From the NCBI RefSeq assembly GCF_964275005.1, contig NC_092698.1, forward strand, positions 32,932,162 through 32,996,161: DNA of 64,000 nt, read 5' to 3'. The notes beneath the pieces are model-generated. The model was given only the letters and a program-made list of their open reading frames with translations, made no database searches and had not been told where the DNA came from. This document shows, piece by piece, positions 10,592 through 62,789 of this stretch. Source of the stretch: Diadema setosum. Taxonomy: Eukaryota; Echinodermata; Echinoidea; Diadematoida; Diadematidae. Both the position numbers and the translations under genes were made by a program. How positions within the stretch are numbered: position 1 is the stretch's first letter; each line of letters begins with the position of its first letter.

Positions 10592-13419
10592 GTAAGTGTG
10601 CCAGCCAGTATTAAGATTTCATGCAGTCACAGAGAATCTATCCCTCAGCATCTCCTATAAACTGGAAATTCTCCCGCCTGGATCATGCGCGTGCAGCCCA
10701 CTTTATGACTTGAAATGAGTGCAAACTAACTTGGCAGGGTCCAAAGCCAGCTGAAGGGATGGTATGGAATCTGTCTGACGCTGCTGTATTGTGTACCAGT
10801 ACCATAGTTTTCATTTGTCTGCAACAGCCACAATATTCTGTGCTTGTGTATATTGCATGTATGCTTGATGCTCAGCGTACTGTATGGTCACCATCAGTGG
10901 TAATAGTGGGCAATTATATGGCAATTATACCACTGCATCACTGCATGCTGCTTTATTTGTTGTTGGTTTATTTATTTTGTTTAAAGCCAAAATTTCAAGA
11001 GGAGAATGCATTTTAGTGAGTGGTAAAACTGCCTGAAGGGAAGAAAAATTCAGGGAGAGAGAGAAGAGAAAAAAGTGCTGATTTAAATTGTCCCTTATTT
11101 GGAAGTGAGGTGACCTACATAGTAGCTCCTGTCATGTCCATTAAAATGTACGTGCCAATTCGCACGTGCAGTCCCAGTCCCAATACATACCACCTGGGGG
11201 AAGTGATTTATAGCCAAGGATCACAATCCTTTTCTAAAGGGTCGTGTCAATGTCAAGCCAAAACAAAATTTCATCTTTTTGATCATCCATTATTTGTGTG
11301 AGATGTATGTCATTGTACCACAAATGTTTGCTTCATGACTAGCGTTCTAGTCAGTTCATTGATAAGAATGATTGTGTGGTCGTATAATCAGTTTTATTGG
11401 ACCGTTATTCTCTGGCAAAGACAGCATTTCATGTGGTACCGGTACTAGTAATAACTTTTAGCATCACTTGTGCACTTTGAACTTTATTTATGTCCCCCAT
11501 CAAACCTTTACTGTGCAATCATCAAAATGTTTGTACATGTATGTAAGTAAGGATAAAAATTAGGGATGGTGTGGAATACTTCTGCTGCGTGCCTACCTGA
11601 CCAATAACTAAGTGTGCAGCAAGTATGAGGTTAGCATCACTTAGTAATTGTATTATGCATGCATAACCTGCCCTAATTAAGAAATCGGAGTCCGGGATAT
11701 GTTGTTGTGGTAACCTGAAAAGGCTTAGAACACGGCAAGAAAATAACATTGAATAAGTTTGTTGAAACATCAAGAATATGGAAATTTTCAAAGCATGCAA
11801 ATAAAGGAGGTAACATTAAGCTCTAAAAATAGAGGTTGATTAAAAAATTCTGTTGTATTTCAAATAAGATGCTGTATTGTAAGCCCAGTGTCACCTCTAT
11901 TTTAACCATGCTGCAGTAAAAAAGTAATCCCTAACACAGAATAGGAAGAGTCCATATAAGAAATATTAGAAATTATTTTAAACACAACAACACTGCTAGT
12001 TCTATTATCTATTATTATCTATTATTCTATTGCTTATCAGAGCAATTACCCTTGCCATATTTATGCACATGGAATTAGTTTCTTCTGTAGGACCTGTACT
12101 GGTTAGTGAATTTTGTCATCATTATCAATGATGGTTTTATAAATGAACTAAAAGAGTACCGGTACCTGGACATTTCCAAAAATATTACTTTGGATAATAT
12201 TATTTAAAAGCTTGCACTACAAAAGGCTATTGTGTGCGATTTTTTTTTTTAAACGTAGTGGTCAAGTACACATCACATAGTTTAAGATGATATCGTAGGG
12301 GGAATAGACACAGTAGTGTGCGTGTGTGTGCATGTATGTCTTTGTGTCTGTGCATGTCTTTGTGTGTATTGCCCGTGTGTGATTGTTTATATTTATATGT
12401 CAGAAGGCTGTGGATAGTTTGCATTCTGACATGGAAGCATACCGGTATGCGAGATGAGAAGTGTTATACCCTGGCAGTCTTCCTCTACAGCTGTAGGTAC
12501 AGTGTGCTTCCTTTTTGACACAATGAGTAGAACAAAAACATTTTGAGAGATTTCCAGAGTTTGATTGTTGTTGGAGTGTTGTTTTCTGGATTCATAATAA
12601 GCCTGTGATATAAAGTTTCTGCCACATACATTGCAGTGTTGTATTTAGGGGTCTATCTATAATACTTTTAAGCATTGTACTGTGACTTCAGGCAACACAA
12701 TATCAAATGTTGTTGTTGTTGCTGTTGATGTTGATGTTGATGATGTTAATTGGCACTGTTCATTCTGTAGGTAGTCTTGCTCCAGACAACTTTGTTATGT
12801 GCTGCCATGCATGGCCAGAAAGGATGATGTTTTCAGCAATTATCAAAGGGCAATGCACATTTTACAGACAGTAATACAAGTGTGAAGATTTTTAAAATTT
12901 GGACAGCTGGTGTCAAAGACTACCGGTACACATTATGGCCAAAAGTTTTGCAAACCTGAGTAATGTTGATGTTAATATTGACTTGAAAATACCTTCGACT
13001 TAGGCAATTATTTGATTAATAAATGCCAGGTCTACTTAAGCAGTGTTGACTGTAATTATCATGTTGTTTATTGTCTATTGATGACGAAGTGCTATGTAAA
13101 CCAGGTACATGTATAGGAATTTGGAGAATCATGCCAAATGCGTAAATTTCCATCAATTTGTTATTAAGTTACTTACGCCTGATGCTTACTGTATATTATT
13201 AGTAATGTGATTTTGAACACTACTTATATCCCCTTTCTAGGTATTCTTGGCTTTGCGGGTGCAGTGACATGGGGTGCAATCGCTTATAAGAGACGTGGTA
13301 ACATGTCCACCTCCATTTACCTGATGCGGCTTCGTGTCATCGCCCAGACGTGTGTCGTTGGAGCAATGGCCGTTGGAGCAGGTGCGACGCTGTTGAAGAG
13401 TTATTACAAAAGGCCGTAA
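10501..13419 (+). CDS. HIGD1A-like: HIG1 domain family member 1-like, two coding exons
   Basis: Exon 1 is 10501-10591 and exon 2 is 13241-13419, joined by a phase-1 GTAAGT...TTTCTAG intron; the stop TAA is at 13417-13419. The product is 89 residues (human HIGD1A has 93). It begins MPVPRISDYEQESQTDKLKR and has the conserved ADPFVPIG segment (about 24-31), a first hydrophobic segment (ILGFAGAVTWGAIAY, about 32-46), the type-1 HIG1 motif I-x3-R-x-R-x3-Q (IYLMRLRVIAQ, about 54-64) and a second hydrophobic segment (CVVGAMAVGAGATLL). HIGD1 proteins are small two-pass proteins of the inner mitochondrial membrane. They associate with respiratory complexes, chiefly cytochrome c oxidase, and modulate its assembly or activity under low oxygen. 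Which vertebrate paralogue (1A, 1B or 1C) is closest cannot be settled. Earlier untranslated exons are possible but not shown. Confidence 0.93.
13241..13419 (+). CDS. HIGD1A-like: HIG1-domain gene, coding exon 2
   Basis: Follows the acceptor CCCTTTCTAG at 13231-13240 and encodes both hydrophobic segments and the I-x3-R-x-R-x3-Q motif. A downstream in-frame reading from 13207 includes intron sequence and is not the real start. Confidence 0.93.
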
Positions 13420-41702: not shown

Positions 41703-41912
41703 TGCCCAATGATGTGAACATAATGCTTGAGGCTAGCCGGTCATTTTCATAGCAGAGTCTTCTTCTTCCATCTCATTTCTGTCTCTAAGATGTCCTTTAT
41801 TCTCCTAAATACTTTTGTGTCCTTTGTTCTGTCTCTCGCAACTTTCTCGACTTCGTTGTGATTTTGGCCAATTGGCAGCCGCTGATTGTTCAGATTATGA
41901 GAGCTGAGGGCA
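41703..41912 (+). ncRNA. Candidate box C/D snoRNA, copy 1
   Basis: Terminal stem TGCCC (41703-41707) / GGGCA (41908-41912). One base, then box C-like ATGATGT (41709-41715; last base differs from the RTGATGA consensus). Box D CTGA at 41904-41907 directly before the closing stem. The 3' portion GCTGATTGTTCAGATTATGA plus GAG before box D is almost identical in copy 2. The middle is pyrimidine-rich. 210 nt is long for the class. No rRNA target could be assigned by eye. The weak box C may mean this copy is less active. Confidence 0.5.
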
Positions 41913-42255
41913 TGCAGTGGTCTGCGTAGTGACAGTGATGTAATGATGTCATTTCCTACTTCTGTTCCCATGAATAATAGAGGAACAACATGAATGCTCA
42001 TCAGGCTCATATTCACTTGCATGTATTTGGTGAAATGTATATTATGATAAAAGAAAATTCATTTCTTGTAGCTGGGTGCATGATGGTCTTTAAAACCTCA
42101 AATGCATTTTTTGTTTCATGTGATAATGTACCACCCTGTGGTGACACAGTTTGGAAAAAAAAAAAAGAAAGAAAAAGATTTGAAGTAATGTAATCTCCAC
42201 ATCACCTTTTGGGGACTGCGATTTCATCATGTTATTGACATGTGTATTCATACAG

Positions 42256-42322
42256 GTTGCCGGGGATGACGACAGAAGAGATGGACTGGACAACTACAAT
42301 TGTAGCAAGACCTCAAAACCAG
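42256..42322 (+). ncRNA. Predicted exon of the candidate snoRNA host
   Basis: Acceptor ATTCATACAG before it, donor GTAGGATTG after it, 67 nt. It separates snoRNA candidates 1 and 2. Confidence 0.4.
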
Positions 42323-42484
42323 GTAGGATTGTAAATTTTTGATGTGCTATAGAATTATTCAGATATTATTTCTTAAAATATTTATGCTGATTTTTTGCTC
42401 ATTGTCTCTGAGTGATGTAACAGAAATTTCAGCTTTGTGTTGTGGTACACTTCGTGTTTTGTAAAAATTTGTTCTCACCATCTA

Positions 42485-42725
42485 CTGTATACGCCAAATA
42501 TTTCGCGAGGTTTTTATTTTTGCGAATTTCGCGAGTCGGGTGCTATTCGCGAATTTAAAGACATGCAAAAATATTGACTGTGATCCTGATGTGAATGTGA
42601 CGTACGTGTGTACACTTCTCTGTTCAGTACAGGACTCCATGATCGCGAATTTAACCACTCGCAAAATTGTCGGGAATTTCCGATTCGCGAAAATTTGGAC
42701 TTGAGAAAATATATGGCGTATACAG
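42485..42725. mobile_element. TA-flanked MITE, CTGTATACGCC ends, GCGAA-rich
   Basis: Left end CTGTATACGCCAAATATTTC; right end, as its reverse complement, CTGTATACGCCATATATTTT; TA on both sides; 241 bp. The interior repeats GCGAATTTCGCGA-like words. Diverged relatives at 50008-50160 and 28027-28110. Lies in an intron of the candidate host transcript. Confidence 0.8.
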
Positions 42726-43043
42726 TATATCCTCCAAGTGGAGATGGTTCCTATTTAAAAACAAATTAACAAACCAAAATAAAGTGGACAAACAATCCAC
42801 CCTCGTGCATTGCCATTTTCTGACAAATTAATGTTAATAGCATCCTGTTTGTTGTAAACTACAATTTCCTCAAAAAGAGATTGCACCTATACAGTGTTTC
42901 CACAAGATTTGACTTCCAATTTTATGCTGTGTTTGATGTTGCCTGAATATGCCAAATGTGGGGTTGTGAAACATCACCTGCCAAATTCAGCGATTTGCCC
43001 ACTTGTAATGTCTGTCTATAATGTAATTTGCTGACCAGTCATT

Positions 43044-43248
43044 GTGCCCGATGATGAGAGAACTATGCTTGAGGCAAGCCGATCATTCTTGCAGCACTTT
43101 CTCTCTAGTCTTCCATCTTGTTTTCAATATTTCTCTTTCTCCATTGTCTTCATATATCACTTGGACTCAATGTCTGCCTCTTCTTTTGTGCTGTGAGTTT
43201 GGTCATTGAGCAGCCACTGATTGTTCAGATTATGAGAGCTGAGGGCAC
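43044..43248 (+). ncRNA. Candidate box C/D snoRNA, copy 2 (best formed)
   Basis: Six-base-pair terminal stem GTGCCC (43044-43049) / GGGCAC (43243-43248). Consensus box C ATGATGA at 43051-43057, one base after the stem; consensus box D CTGA at 43239-43242. It aligns with copy 1 through TATGCTTGAGGCAAGCCGAT near the 5' end and CACTGATTGTTCAGATTATG near the 3' end, while sequences outside the stem are unrelated. 205 nt. The family, guide and target are not identified. Confidence 0.6.
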
Positions 43249-43458
43249 ATAATACCTGTACATTAAAAAGAATGATGTAGACCCTTCTGATTATGACACA
43301 ATAAGACTAACATGAAATTTGAGAATCACAAGTGAAATTTGCCATAGCCAAGTATGGTCTGTAGTTATACTGATCTGTCTTTTATATCCATGGCATATAA
43401 TCAAGGATGTAATGTGTTTAACTTTCAGTCTGGTTTTGTCTCTATCTGTGTTGGTCAG

Positions 43459-43545
43459 ATTTATATGTCAGAGGTTGATCGCCTTCAAACTGTTCTGGGA
43501 ACCTTGCAGCTGAGAATTTGCCGTCCTACGCAGATGCATGTCTTG
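43459..43545 (+). ncRNA. Predicted exon of the candidate snoRNA host
   Basis: Preceded by a pyrimidine-rich tract ending TTGGTCAG (an alternative acceptor TTTCAG gives 43429) and followed by GTAAGT. It separates snoRNA candidates 2 and 3. Confidence 0.4.
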
Positions 43546-43959
43546 GTAAGTTGAAATAAGGTGAATAGTATTAGTTACCGTTTAAGGGGAAGGGAAAATG
43601 TGAGAGTGCAGTGGTAAATCCATGAATTATGCTTTTATGTGATATTTTTGTGTTCATTTCTGGAAAGATGACTTGCCAAGAACCTGTACCTCAAGGTGTA
43701 ATTCACATTTTATGATAGAAAAATTAGAGAGCAGGAGGGAGGGTGGGGTGAGGTTCTTTATCATTGATAAGTAAACAAGTAATGCCAACCCTGGTGTTTG
43801 TAAAGGTTTACTGTCATTGTTTATCGAGGTTATAGTGTAAAGAAAGTGAAATCAAGTGCAAGTAAAGTCGGTCCATTCAGTCTAATAGTCAAATCAAATC
43901 AAATGGAATCAAAACAGAACTGTTAAATAAATTTTAAAAAAATTAAAAGACTTGGAATG

Positions 43960-44191
43960 TGCCCTATGATGACAAACAGATGCCTTATTCTGCTACTGGT
44001 GTGCAGCCATCCCACCTAAATCTTGTCTACCACTGCTCCATTCCATTCAGTCCTCCTCCTCCTCTTCCTCCTCCTCCTCCTCCTCCTCCTCTGCACTCTC
44101 TTCCACTACCCCTATCTTCTCTTTGTATTCCTTTTCTCTGGGATGTCTGCAGTTTGGGCCAGACTGCTGAAAAATCTTATGTCTGAGGGCA
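43960..44191 (+). ncRNA. Candidate box C/D snoRNA, copy 3 (expanded)
   Basis: Terminal stem TGCCC (43960-43964) / GGGCA (44187-44191), box C ATGATGA (43966-43972), box D CTGA (44183-44186). The outline matches copies 1 and 2, but the body has diverged and contains a (CTC)n run at about 44052-44090, making it 232 nt. The sequence before box D (AAAAATCTTATGT) differs from the other two, so any guide specificity would differ. The proline-rich frame across it is an artefact of the CTC run. Confidence 0.5.
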
Positions 44192-44930
44192 TGGCATGAA
44201 GTTGCACATTTATTGCTTTCAGTTGATCATAGACTCAATTTCACTTCCCCCCCCCCTTCAAAAAAAAAAAAAAAGCTTGATATCGCGTGTGACTCTCGGC
44301 ACTGGCCTATTCACATTGAATGAAATGATTTGTTTGCAGTTTTGCGAACTGTTATTTGACAAGATGTAAAGTGAATGTTTCTCAGTAAACTATTTGTTTG
44401 TGCATAATGTTTGAAAATTTTGAACTAGCGGCAGCTGTAGGCAAACCATCTTGTTTTACTTCCCCACCCTTTTTCATGTTAGAATTTTGGCAGTGTGAAT
44501 ATATGGAATTAAATTGTGCATTCTGCATGCATATTATGGACTTGTGCCACCATTGTGCAAAATATTCAATTCTAAGTGGCTAAAATGGAGTTTATAACAT
44601 TGTTACATGTTCCTGTGTACTCTGCTGTTTGACTCCACAGATTGCGAGGGCTGTGTTCGACACTGGCCGAATGTGCTTTATTTGAATCGTGCTGCAGAGG
44701 AACTTTGGAAGCAGTGGATGCCTTTTAGCTCCTGCTTTTGTGGGGGATGGACAAGAGGATCGTATTCATGAAACAGTTTCACTAGCAGTATAAGACCATA
44801 GGCATAGCATTGATGGTGTCATCTTTCTCTTATGATAAGAACATGTTTGGGTGAACAGAGAGTATGTTGATATGAAACCAAGACAGGGATGTCATTTCTC
44901 ACAATAATTTACATCCTCTGATGGATATTT

Positions 44931-50949: not shown

Positions 50950-53900
50950 CTGTGGGGCCAGAGCAGATGAGCAAGAAAAGAGAAAACAAAGGGAGATATC
51001 AGAGAGATTATGGCAATTAGACCTGTCACCTCAGACAAGACATGTCAGTTAATGCTTTTTTACTCGCTGCACATCAAAGGGAAAAGAAAAAGATAATGGT
51101 ACATACTGGTAGACTAACCACCTCATCACAACACTGTGCTTTATGATGATAAATACAACCAATCCTAGTATGTCTTAAATTTCATCGCACCACAAATATG
51201 ATGGAATACTAAACATGAAATTTCCCTACAAATATCAGTGGCAAAAAAAAAACATTTCCTGTGTCACACAAATTATGGGACACCATGTTCGTACAAGTAA
51301 TAAATGTCTGCAGAGTTCACAAAAGTTTGAACATTTTTCTAAAGTCATCTACGTTACCATGGTGACTAACCTGGAAGGGAATGTTCAGTCTCTTTTTGAC
51401 ATCCAGTCGGTAGGTTCGGGCCTCATCCTTGTTGCTGTAGTCTGTTATCCGCAGTCTGAGGATTTCGTACACCCTCCGCACTTGTTTCTGTCATAAAATC
51501 CAAGAAAGAGTGTATGTATTTACAGGGATTGTGAAATATTCATGTTTTTATGTAGCAATTTCCAACACATTGTTGTGGCCACAACGCTTCACAACTTATG
51601 CCTTTTTGATATACCCTTTCTCAATGATATTATATTTCTCTCAAAATAGTGAAGCATAGTTAAGTGCGCTTTAATATTTTCTTATCAAACACAGGTGTGA
51701 ACCTGCGTGAAACCTGTAATTCAGTCACTTGTACTTCACAGCTACTGTAAAACAAGAAAAAATAATGTGAATAGTGGCACAGAGTTTTTGTGAATTGGAG
51801 CCAACAGCCTTTTTTTGCAGCATGAAACTTTCATGAACCGTCACTGGCATTCTATGCATTGTGTAGATTAATATTTTGTGTGCATTTTACTTTAGAGAAT
51901 CTTAGCTCCTTGTGAAATTCGCGAAAGTTTTGTGCAGACAAAAATGTATGGTTTTATAGTGTTTCTGTGTGTGTGTGTGTGTGTGGGTGTGTGTGTTTGT
52001 AAGATTAAATTGACTGATCCCTGAATCCAGATTGGAATTATGTGATGTATGAAAACGGAGCACAAGTTGGTACATATGCCAGAATCTGATGTCCTAAAAT
52101 ATTTCTGCTACGACTCAAATTGTTCACGTAATGCAAGGAACTTCTGGTCACATATTTTTTTTTTCTAAATTCTTTATCTACAACATTTTGCTTTCAAATT
52201 ATTTCCAGGCATGCTGTTGAAATTTGGTTTTCATTTCTGTGAATAGGTTGATCACAAATGACACGGTTGATCAGAACTTCTCCAGTTAACACAAAAATGT
52301 GGCCAGTGTATTTTTCTAAAACTCAGCAAAGAAAAATTTCAATGTTAGCATCACAACAGACAATGTAAAGGGCACGAAACAAGGTGTGAATGGGACGATC
52401 TTTTAAATCAACAAAGAAAAACATTATAAAATCTTCCAAGATTTAGTTCTACCCACTGATTCTGAGCTGTTTACACTACCTTATTGAGTTTCAGTTTCTC
52501 CTGTGCTTCTTTCTTCATGTCTTCACTGAAACCCTTGACAAGGTTGGGGGTAGCAAACGCAGACAGCTGTGTGCATTCCATGCAGTCGATGTAATCTCTC
52601 AACCTCACAAAGTCATCCGATGGGTCTTCCACTGATTAAAACCAAAGATTTTGAGAAAAAAAAAGTCAGTCTTTCTAAAACACAATCTGCATTTGTTTAT
52701 AAAGTTTCCAAACGCACACTACTTTCTTTATTAAATGCAATAAAATTTTCAACTGTGCGACATTACCACTTTCTACCATAAGAGAAACAAGTCTTTGTTC
52801 ACCACTTTGACAATGATTGCATCATATTAAAATGACATGAGCCTTCTCAAAGGATATGTGCAAATGGCATACATGGTGCTTTTTCACAGTGACAAAATAC
52901 CCCTTGATCATGATTTCTATCAGTACTCTTCTGCGTAAATCAATTCAAAATCTATTCACAGCAACAAAATATCAACTGACCATGATCTATAACAGTACTC
53001 TTCTGCATAAATCAATTCAAAATCTTTATATTGACAGAAAAAACATCTTCCTCTGGATATTTAGTACTTCTTTGAGGTAACACAACTATGAGTCACTTAC
53101 TTGTTCTTCACGGGACAGTATGCAAAATTATGCCTGCACACACCATATACTTTGCGAATCATGTGATATTTGTAAAACCGTTTGTTAGCATAATGACATT
53201 GTTCATGCATCTCTTGATAGTTACAGCATAATTTTTTACAAATGTGGTATGTTGGTGTACTTATTTCAGCATTTGACCATCACCATACAGCTCAGAAAAG
53301 TTAAACAATTTCTGAAATTTTGCCACAATGTTACTGTAAATACTGTAAAACCAAAAACATTCACGGCATGCAACTTTCACAAATTGCAGCCAAAGGCCTT
53401 TCTCGCGGCATGACACTTTCACGATTTGCCACTCGCATTCAATGCACTGTGTAGACAAACACTTTCACAAATCTTGGCTCCTCACAAAATTTGTGAAAGT
53501 TTCAAGGACACAAAAATTTGACAGTAGAGCCTATTACAGCAATCCTTACCTGTTATGTCTAGGACAATGGGATCTTTCCTGAAGTCTCTGTACATGGTCT
53601 GAAGCAACTGAGCTCCATGACCTCTCCTCTGGAAGGGAGGCAGGATCAGAACTTGACTGGAAGAAAAATAAAAATACCATGGTAAAGAACAAGACATCAC
53701 TAAAATTAACCAACATACATGACTTAAGATTCAGCATGAACATTTTAGTGATGTCTTGTTCTATATTATTCATATTATATAATTCTACAAATAAAAAAAA
53801 ATCACATTTGACATATTGTAATTCTATCTGGGGGAATACATATTCTTCCCACTTGCAAAAGTTGATAGTTTTACAAAAGAAGGCTATACGTAACTGCACT

Positions 53901-56900: not shown

Positions 56901-59900
56901 CAGTTCACAGTATTTTTCTTTTAATACCACAACATTGTCATATTTCCATGCAATCATGTGTATTCAAATGTTTTATTGCAATTGCATTTTTGTTGGAAAT
57001 GAAATAAGTGAAATGAAATGAAACGCCATGCTGCACAAAGACATCAGGGCATTCAAATTGTTATGGCAAATGTTGGTCAAAAGCACAAATCTAACAAATA
57101 TCAGGGCACTCAGTATCACTGCCTTCCTGATGGAATTTGGTGACAATCTGAAAAGAATTGATAGAGGGATTCACAGAGGAGAGCTACAAGGGTTAATTTC
57201 AACCTACACAGTGTAGTACATCCATTTCTCATCATCTACATCGATGTAGGAGGAAGCGTCCACAAACCACCAGAGGAACGTCTGGAGGTGGGTGTGGAAG
57301 TCACGGAATCCCGCCGTGTTGATGCTGCTCTTGTAGATCTCAAAGTGTCGCGTGGTTCCCTGCTCTGCCTCCTCTATGGAGTAGGAGTGGAGAAGCTCTC
57401 CCATTGGCTGAAACGAGTCATCGTTGTCCAGCTGAGAGATAAAACGGTCCAGATTCTCCATGGGTTGGATTTCCAGCTTCTCAACAATGGGTTTGAGCAC
57501 TGGGTCTGCCTGAAATGTCATAATACAGTAGAAAGGAGCATATAATATACTAATAATAGTCGAAAAGGAAAGTTGGGTACACCGCCATTTGTTATTTCAC
57601 ACGTTTGATTTCAAAATATTCCAAAACTCATTATCCTGCTGTTAAATTGTGTCAGCCACAAAAGATTCTTGGAAAGAGCCTTTCAATATATTGCAAGCAA
57701 ATTCCAAATAGTAGAAGATGAATTTTGAGCCTTTCTGAGAACAATAGTTTAGTTTTCACTTCTCCATTGCTGGCCTTTTCTTAGGCAATGCATAATATTT
57801 GAACATTATACATATTCCTATACTGAGCTACAGGTGCTATTTCTTACCTGAACCCCTTCAAACTTTTTGGGGCTGACTTTCTCCTGGAAGGTCTGGTTGA
57901 TGTATGGTGTGAGCTTCGCTGCTGAGAAGAACAGCTGTACCTTGAGGCCCTTGTATCCAAAAATGGTCTCACTGAAATCAAAGGCACAACACCAAGTTAA
58001 TTAATTGCAGTGTTTCACATACACACACAGCTTGATACATAATCAGTGATGTTGAGTCAGTGTGTACATGTATAAGTTTGGCTACAACTTGACTGCCCGG
58101 GCTTTTACAGATTTCTTTTAAATTTCTTTTATTTTTTTTTTCCCAAATAGTGCAATATAATCACAAAAGTATGCTCCGATAGACTTCTTGATGCATTATG
58201 TCTACAGCACAAATCAACCGATTTATCCGAATTTTATCATGATGACTTATGCTCAAATTCACTGTATAATGACAGTAAATGGAACATCAACATCATGAAC
58301 TTTCATTATTTCTGAATACAAACTTTTATCAAATAAAACCAAGAAATGTGCATAGAAATGCTTATTCATTCAGACAATACCAATGAAAATTAAATAAGTT
58401 TGATTTCTATGATTAAACATAATAAATATTTTCATGATCTTTGTGATCATGTTCGTGAGAAGAAAATTCCACAAACTATCATTTTTTTCATAAAAGTACT
58501 CACTCCCTCAATTAAAAATGAATTCAATTTTCATAATGCTAAAAAAGTGAATACATGCTGAATTTTCTTTGTATTTTCTTTATATTGTAGTCCATATGTG
58601 ACGTCGCAAAGTGTTATAGTGTTCTCATCCAGCGGTGGCTGCACAAAAACTTTAAAAATTCATAACTTATGAATGGATTGTCTGACTTTCCTCAAACGTT
58701 ACTGAAGTGTTCTACTATATAATAGCAATACTGCTGCATTCCCTCAATTCACAGATATTCAAAACTATTATCACAGTGAGCCTGAATAATCATTGATATG
58801 TCCTAGGTTAGTAATGGCATTCAGACAGAAAGTGAACAACTTTTGAAGACGTGCATTTTCTTAAAGGGACTGTACAGTACTGTTTGAGGTGAGGATTCAG
58901 GTTTAAAACATTTTTTGTGAGATAATGGCCAAGATATGCAAAAAAGCGATCCTAATAGAATTGATAGGCCACAACTTTTATTAGGATCTCTTTGTTTTTC
59001 CTTGTTTTTAGATATCTCAGTCATTTCAAAACCAATTTTCATCAAATAAACTTTTGATTCCCCTTAGAATTGCTCTTTAACATTTCATAGAGTGGTTTCT
59101 AAATATCTCGCAAAATGTTACAAGTTGAATCCTCACCTCAACCAGTACTGTACAGTCCCCTTAATCTTTTCTATTTGTATACTAGTTTCCGTATATGCCA
59201 CACATATCACACATGGTGAAGCTTCAAAAAGCAAGGAGTATTTGACAGACTCTGACTGCACATGTCACAGTTTCGTAACCAATACTCACTACCATCCAAT
59301 AAGTGGCAAATATGTTTCACTATGTGATATATGACAGATGCTCTTTCCATAGCTGAAGGTGCCTGTACTCACTTCTGTCCAAAGATTTGATGTGTGAATT
59401 CCGGATGAAATGATGTCTTGTCATCCTCAATGTCTTCTTTTGAACGAACTGCACACGAGGCAGAGCGGGAAAAAGAGTGATCAACGATAAACATCTGTCC
59501 AAAGTGTCTCTTTTTAAAAGCTCTTTCTTTTATAGTATTTACTCTGATGAAATTATACATTGTGAAAACAAACTTCATAATCTCCACTTTATCTTTGCTT
59601 TACAAATTCATGTGCATGTATTGTACACATTACATGCATGATAAAGGGGAAAAGATGCAAATTACTCATTTTATTTAAACAGCAAGAGACCCAAGGGTCT
59701 TGTGCTGAATATTACAAGTTTACCTGCCATGTATTCTTGCTATTATCTAAAAACTTGGCACACATGGGGAGGGGGTGGCTTCGAGGGCCTCCAGGGGGTA
59801 TGCTCTCCATTTGTCCTAATCGGGCAAAATACCTGCTAAGAACATTTTTACAAACATGTATTTCATACTCCGGCAGTAACACAATTTTACCTGCCAAGTT

Positions 59901-62557: not shown

Positions 62558-62570
62558 CATCAGAATATAT

Positions 62571-62789
62571 GGAATCAAAAGGGGCCTGAGCTTTCGATCC
62601 TAGCAGAATCTTCATCAGAGGCAAAATGACCAAAAAAGACCAAAAATGACCAAAAAAATGACCAAAAAAGGTCATTTTGCCTCTGACGAAGATTCTGCTA
62701 GGATCGAAAGCTCAGGCCCCTTTTGACTCCATTTTACTCCATTGGCTCACCTTTATTGGATAAGCAGTTTTCAGCAGCCTTTTTTGCTA
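62571..62789. mobile_element. 219-bp inverted-repeat insertion with 13-bp target duplication
   Basis: CATCAGAATATAT occurs at 62558-62570 and 62790-62802, flanking the insert. Within it, 62571-62631 and 62670-62730 are 61-nt inverted arms with about two mismatches (GGGGCCTGAGCTTTCGATCC and its inverse), separated by an A-rich loop. The long duplication suggests target-primed insertion rather than a cut-and-paste transposon. Class uncertain. Confidence 0.7.

Follow-up and report, generated by a model that had tools for sequence, protein, structure and literature searches.

Box C/D guide RNAs are stable RNAs that are bound by fibrillarin, NOP56, NOP58 and a 15.5-kDa protein. In human cells, SNORD97 and the 216-nt SCARNA97 are reported to guide the 2'-O-methylation of C34 in elongator tRNA-Met(CAU), and the targeting of SCARNA97 to Cajal bodies is reported to need a 93-nt pyrimidine-rich stretch in its interior (available text of PMC6601510). 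The reverse complement of the FISH probe given in the same text shows that human SCARNA97 ends in ...AGATTATGAGATCTGA, with AGATTATGAGAT preceding box D. Reproducible hybrids of tRNA-Met-CAT with both human RNAs have been described (excerpt of PMC12645875), and Cm34 of tRNA-Met is described as the single Nm34 site that is not made by FTSJ1 (excerpt of PMC9889914). As far as the available text of PMC6601510 goes, each invertebrate examined carries one SNORD97/SCARNA97 gene. Both the family and its mechanism are already known.

In the window analysed here, a 64,000-nt stretch of the Diadema setosum genome, three plus-strand elements open with TGCCC-N-ATGATG[A/T] and end with CTGA-GGGCA, with box C close to the 5' terminus and box D close to the 3' terminus in all three. 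Copy 1 (41703..41912, 210 nt) contains the box C variant ATGATGT at 41709..41715 and box D (CTGA) at 41904..41907. Copy 2 (43045..43247, 203 nt) contains ATGATGA at 43051..43057 and CTGA at 43239..43242. Similarly, copy 3 (43960..44191, 232 nt) contains ATGATGA at 43966..43972 and CTGA at 44183..44186. The lengths were initially annotated as 205-232 nt; the upper figure is correct, and the lower one becomes 203 nt on direct reading. The closing strand was also said to be complementary to the opening one, and it is so in every copy: the TGCCC/GGGCA terminal stem has five, seven and five Watson-Crick pairs in copies 1, 2 and 3, respectively. The stem of copy 2 reaches 43043-43249, and that of copy 3 can be extended to 43958-44193 with two G.U pairs.

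Both TGCCC[N]ATGATG and CTGAGGGCA occur three times in the whole window, in each case on the plus strand and never on the minus strand. A scan of both strands of the window for RTGATG[A/T]...CTGA with at least five Watson-Crick stem pairs returned just these three elements, all of them plus-strand. By comparison, order-1 simulations (n=20) gave a mean of 0.15 candidates per strand and order-3 simulations (n=60) a mean of 0.067; three or more candidates, or two identical stems, were seen in 0/60 of the latter. Three boxed and stemmed elements are beyond chance, which provides for about 0.1 per 64-kb strand. The observation of three C/D-like elements in the initial annotation is thus confirmed, both by direct reading and by the stem scan set against simulations.

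By sequence, copies 1 and 2 are clear homologues, with a local alignment score of 64 against a best score of 19 in 500 shuffles. Their identity is unevenly distributed along the alignment. In the 5' part, 11/12 columns are identical at 1-12, 3/8 at 13-20 and 21/23 at 21-43; through the middle, identity drops to 8/17 (44-60), 19/40 (61-100) and 19/52 (101-152), and it rises again to 20/26 (153-178) and 31/32 (179-210) at the 3' end. The shared sequence of about 25 bases before box D that had been noted in these two copies is therefore present and larger in extent, as it includes the 31/32 block at the 3' end as well as the 21/23 block at columns 21-43. The preservation of the ends of copies 1 and 2, with divergent filler between them, fits constraint on the RNA ends. 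The surrounding DNA had been described as unrelated. This is correct at shuffle level for the 150-nt flanks of copies 1 and 2 and of copies 2 and 3 (score reached by 104 to 140 of 200 shuffles), and marginal for those of copies 1 and 3 (14 and 15 of 200 shuffles as good). A CGCGAA-rich block before copy 2, at 42490-42735, looks by eye like an inserted repeat.

The element ahead of box D bears on what copies 1 and 2 are. Elongator tRNA-Met genes were located at two places in the genome by pattern, were called as tRNA-Met CAT by ARAGORN and are identical over 73 nt. The guide element TTCAGATTATGAGA, at 41889..41902 in copy 1 and in the same form at 43224..43237 in copy 2, can form 14 uninterrupted Watson-Crick pairs with nucleotides 31-44 of this elongator tRNA-Met(CAU) from the same genome. 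In both copies, the wobble C34 falls opposite the fifth base upstream of box D (D+5), so that two of the three copies have a guide with D+5 on a target nucleotide. None of 300 shuffled guides matched the real score on tRNA-Met for either copy. On other RNAs the same guides are ordinary, with 65-68/300 shuffles as good on U6 (one gene of 4 matches) and 203-212/300 on U2 (one gene of 43). The U2 snRNA genes include a tandem array at 27.93-28.01 Mb of G000:C2, often with a spacing of about 1.42 kb.

The guide together with box D (AGATTATGAGANCTGA) is present at four places in the 912.68-Mb genome, two of which are copies 1 and 2. The other two AGATTATGAGANCTGA places were considered as further guides and rejected, having no stemmed box C within 330 bases upstream; SNORD97 was also absent from a loose Rfam scan at both. 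Copies 1 and 2 have a further CTGA some 20 nt ahead of box D, which was rejected as a box D', as by eye no suitable box C' lies between the two. The 5' block contains a UGAG within a possible hairpin, a candidate CAB-like element.

At gathering score, Rfam assigns none of the three copies to a family. Below it, copy 2 matches SNORD97 (RF01291) in an end-to-end alignment at 27.7 bits, with an E value of 0.06 in 2.7 kb and of 1.4 over the whole window. Of the other two, each scanned alone, copy 1 also aligns end to end (17.2 bits, E 1.1) and copy 3 matches through its 5' part (15.4 bits, E 2.9). The gathering threshold of this 142-position model is 45 bits, a database cut-off and not a biological trait. 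The Rfam check suggested for these elements thus produced sub-threshold SNORD97 matches and nothing at gathering score. At a loose threshold, SNORD97 is the sole snoRNA family matching copies 1 and 2, aside from small sR models, which are presumably archaeal. The remaining sub-threshold Rfam matches in the copies (small sR, lncRNA, bacterial sRNA and miRNA models) are at chance level. Since the SNORD97 scores lie below threshold, copies 1 and 2 are placed in the family on the strength of their guide and its register, their boxes and their stem.

A genome-wide SNORD97 search, in which 48 of 294,772 candidates were scored, gave two other sub-threshold places at 28.6 and 27 bits, both without the guide, and missed copies 1-3. 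Genome-wide scores of this size are at chance level, because the same search matched in 8 of 14 prokaryote controls. A pattern search of viral contigs matched two with one sequence in common, which at one locus lies inside an ORF and which has no SNORD97 match; this is set down to chance. Elsewhere in the window, long inverted repeats at 62570-62731 and 1416-1532 match miRNA models below gathering and are probably mobile-element palindromes.

Taken together, copies 1 and 2 are best read as intron-encoded box C/D guides of the SNORD97/SCARNA97 family, with copy 3 most likely a tandem paralogue that has kept the terminal core and a pyrimidine-rich interior while its tRNA guide was lost or altered; we give this reading a probability of roughly 0.87. 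The initial annotation regarded the family as unknown and the size as unusual. Neither description is supported for copies 1 and 2, whose size is in keeping with SNORD97/SCARNA97 (human SCARNA97 is 216 nt) and whose tRNA-Met guide and register are those of that family. By analogy with the human members and with box C/D biology in general, the RNAs of copies 1 and 2 would come out of the host introns after splicing, be trimmed back to the TGCCC/GGGCA stem and associate with the core proteins of box C/D particles. The box-D guide would then pair with elongator tRNA-Met(CAU) along its anticodon arm, and fibrillarin would 2'-O-methylate the wobble C34.

The interiors of the three copies are rich in pyrimidines, which make up 76%, 77% and 90% of the best 93 nt in copies 1, 2 and 3, respectively. 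Stretches of 93 nt reaching 75% pyrimidine account for 0.2% of the window, copies included. Folding of the whole RNAs is no better than that of shuffles (z -0.97, -0.13 and -0.83), and in none of the three copies is there secondary structure above shuffle level past the terminal stem.

Long box C/D RNAs in separate introns of one plus-strand transcript remain the best reading of the locus, with the introns as predictions. An exon of 67 nt is predicted between copies 1 and 2 at 42256..42322 (acceptor 6.6, donor 9.4 bits), and one of 87 nt between copies 2 and 3 at about 43459..43545 (5.7 and 8.5 bits, with an alternative acceptor at 43429), both on the plus strand. Splice sites this strong are common on the plus strand of the window, where 417 acceptors score 5 bits or more and 44 donors score 8 bits or more. 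The placement of one copy per intron, as originally annotated, is accordingly a prediction from unexceptional splice sites. When the two predicted exons are joined, one frame is open for 51 codons, a weak indication obtained by hand. A stricter exon search of 36.0-51.5 kb gave three other exons and neither of the inter-copy exons.

As far as scanned, nothing points to LARP4 or EIF4G2 as the host gene, and such a host is not a defining trait of the family outside vertebrates. In particular, MIF4G, MA3, W2 and La domains had no match on the plus strand at 5.7-64 kb (to 61.0 kb in one of the three frames), and Pfam gave sub-cut-off matches only on the plus strand at 15.6-64 kb (again to 61.0 kb in one frame). 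The genome contains at least six La motif matches, none of which, among the matches listed, is on the contig of the window. As these matches lie on other contigs, a LARP4 host is unlikely. Two other genes were recognized in the window: far upstream of the copies, an exon at 13237-13377 on the plus strand encodes a HIG_1_N domain of a hypoxia-induced, HIGD-like gene, and the minus strand carries exons of HAT1 (histone acetyltransferase type B) at 51452-51496, 52480-52599, 57258-57509 and 57848-57982. The latter were identified by HAT1_C and Hat1_N Pfam matches, with the 51452-51496 piece alone below the curated cut-off.

Copy 3 is a box C/D RNA candidate with a different guide, the sequence before its box D being AAAAATCTTATGT. 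Against tRNA-Met its longest run is six bases, off C34, and 297/300 shuffled guides are as good. Owing to this misfit, copy 3 is left outside SNORD97/SCARNA97. Its alignment scores with copies 1 and 2 were reached by 194 and 111 of 500 shuffles, respectively; as overall similarity is thus at shuffle level, its likeness to them is limited to the ends. The likeliest reading is that copy 3 is a diverged paralogue of copies 1 and 2.

The chance that copy 3 is a duplicate in decay, or resembles the other two without being related to them, is slightly below even. The shuffle-level similarity speaks for this, as does the score of copy 3 under a model of copies 1 and 2: 11.5 bits over its first 46 bases, which is within noise, an unrelated place scoring higher at 15.1 bits. 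Against this, copy 3 lies about 0.7 kb from copy 2 and carries the identical TGCCC/GGGCA stem and both boxes, although chance provides for about 0.1 such element per 64-kb strand.

Slightly less likely is that copy 3 has not decayed and works as a paralogue now aimed at another RNA, such as an rRNA, an snRNA or another tRNA. Its boxes, exact stem and pyrimidine-rich interior are intact, as expected of an RNA that forms a particle, and its best register on U6 (one gene) places D+5 on A47, presumably a methylated site in mammals. This U6 pairing is, however, six contiguous bases long and equalled by 43/300 shuffles, the guide gives nothing on tRNA-Met or on U2 (289/300 shuffles as good, one gene), and a (TCC)n tract occupies part of the interior. 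No target of copy 3 was found among tRNA-Met, one U6 gene and one U2 gene. A 28S rRNA pattern had no match in the assembly. The 18S pattern matched one short, isolated fragment, at G000:C9:5932000-5941900, with none of ten other rRNA landmarks beside it. A more specific version, in which copy 3 would be a SCARNA97-derived guide re-aimed at a different RNA and its pyrimidine tract an ancestral, pre-vertebrate Cajal-body signal, is unlikely.

It is highly improbable that all three elements represent ordinary repeats, or copies of a mobile element, with ends that happen to look like boxes C and D: repeats and simple sequence are present around the copies, but blastn against the 912.68-Mb genome, with simple repeats and very common words skipped, returned copy 1 with itself and copy 2 alone and copy 3 with itself alone, and such an origin leaves the guide fit to tRNA-Met unexplained.

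What appears to be new, modestly and at the level of sequence, is the presence of two intact guides and a diverged third in one genome, together with a SCARNA97-like pyrimidine tract in that genome. No report of such a SNORD97/SCARNA97 cluster was found in the titles and abstract openings among the literature matches listed. The RNA-guided methylation of a tRNA wobble base, which has been shown in human cells, seems to be conserved outside vertebrates. Further, the locus suggests that guides of the long SCARNA97-like type, pyrimidine tract included, did not originate in vertebrates, and that this guide has been duplicated in other lineages as well.

Among known systems, human SCARNA97 (SNORD133), from intron 10 of LARP4, resembles copies 1 and 2 in length (216 nt versus 210 and 203 nt) and in its pyrimidine-rich interior, 93 nt in the human RNA. 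It also carries the guide AGATTATGAGA before box D, with D+5 on C34 of elongator tRNA-Met, and it is sense intronic, as copies 1 and 2 are predicted to be. The 3' end reads AGATTATGAGATCTGA in the human RNA versus CAGATTATGAGAGCTGA in copies 1 and 2. Unlike human SCARNA97, the present locus has a different host, as far as scanned, and consists of two adjacent copies and a third with another guide. Human SNORD97 (RF01291), from intron 13 of EIF4G2, is similar in that its UGCCC/GGGCA stem, box C, guide and block order align with those of copies 1 and 2 from one end to the other; it differs in that its model has 142 positions, against which the matches here stay below threshold (27.7, 17.2 and 15.4 versus 45 bits). 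The SNORD97/SCARNA97 candidates of insects, Ciona and plants have the same predicted target as copies 1 and 2, according to the main-text description in PMC6601510, which gives a single gene in these organisms, in contrast to the two intact guides and third candidate found here. Finally, the archaeal C/D sRNAs for tRNA wobble positions, that of tRNA-Met included (excerpt of PMC7994747), are alike in box C/D-guided 2'-O-methylation at position 34, a likeness of mechanism.
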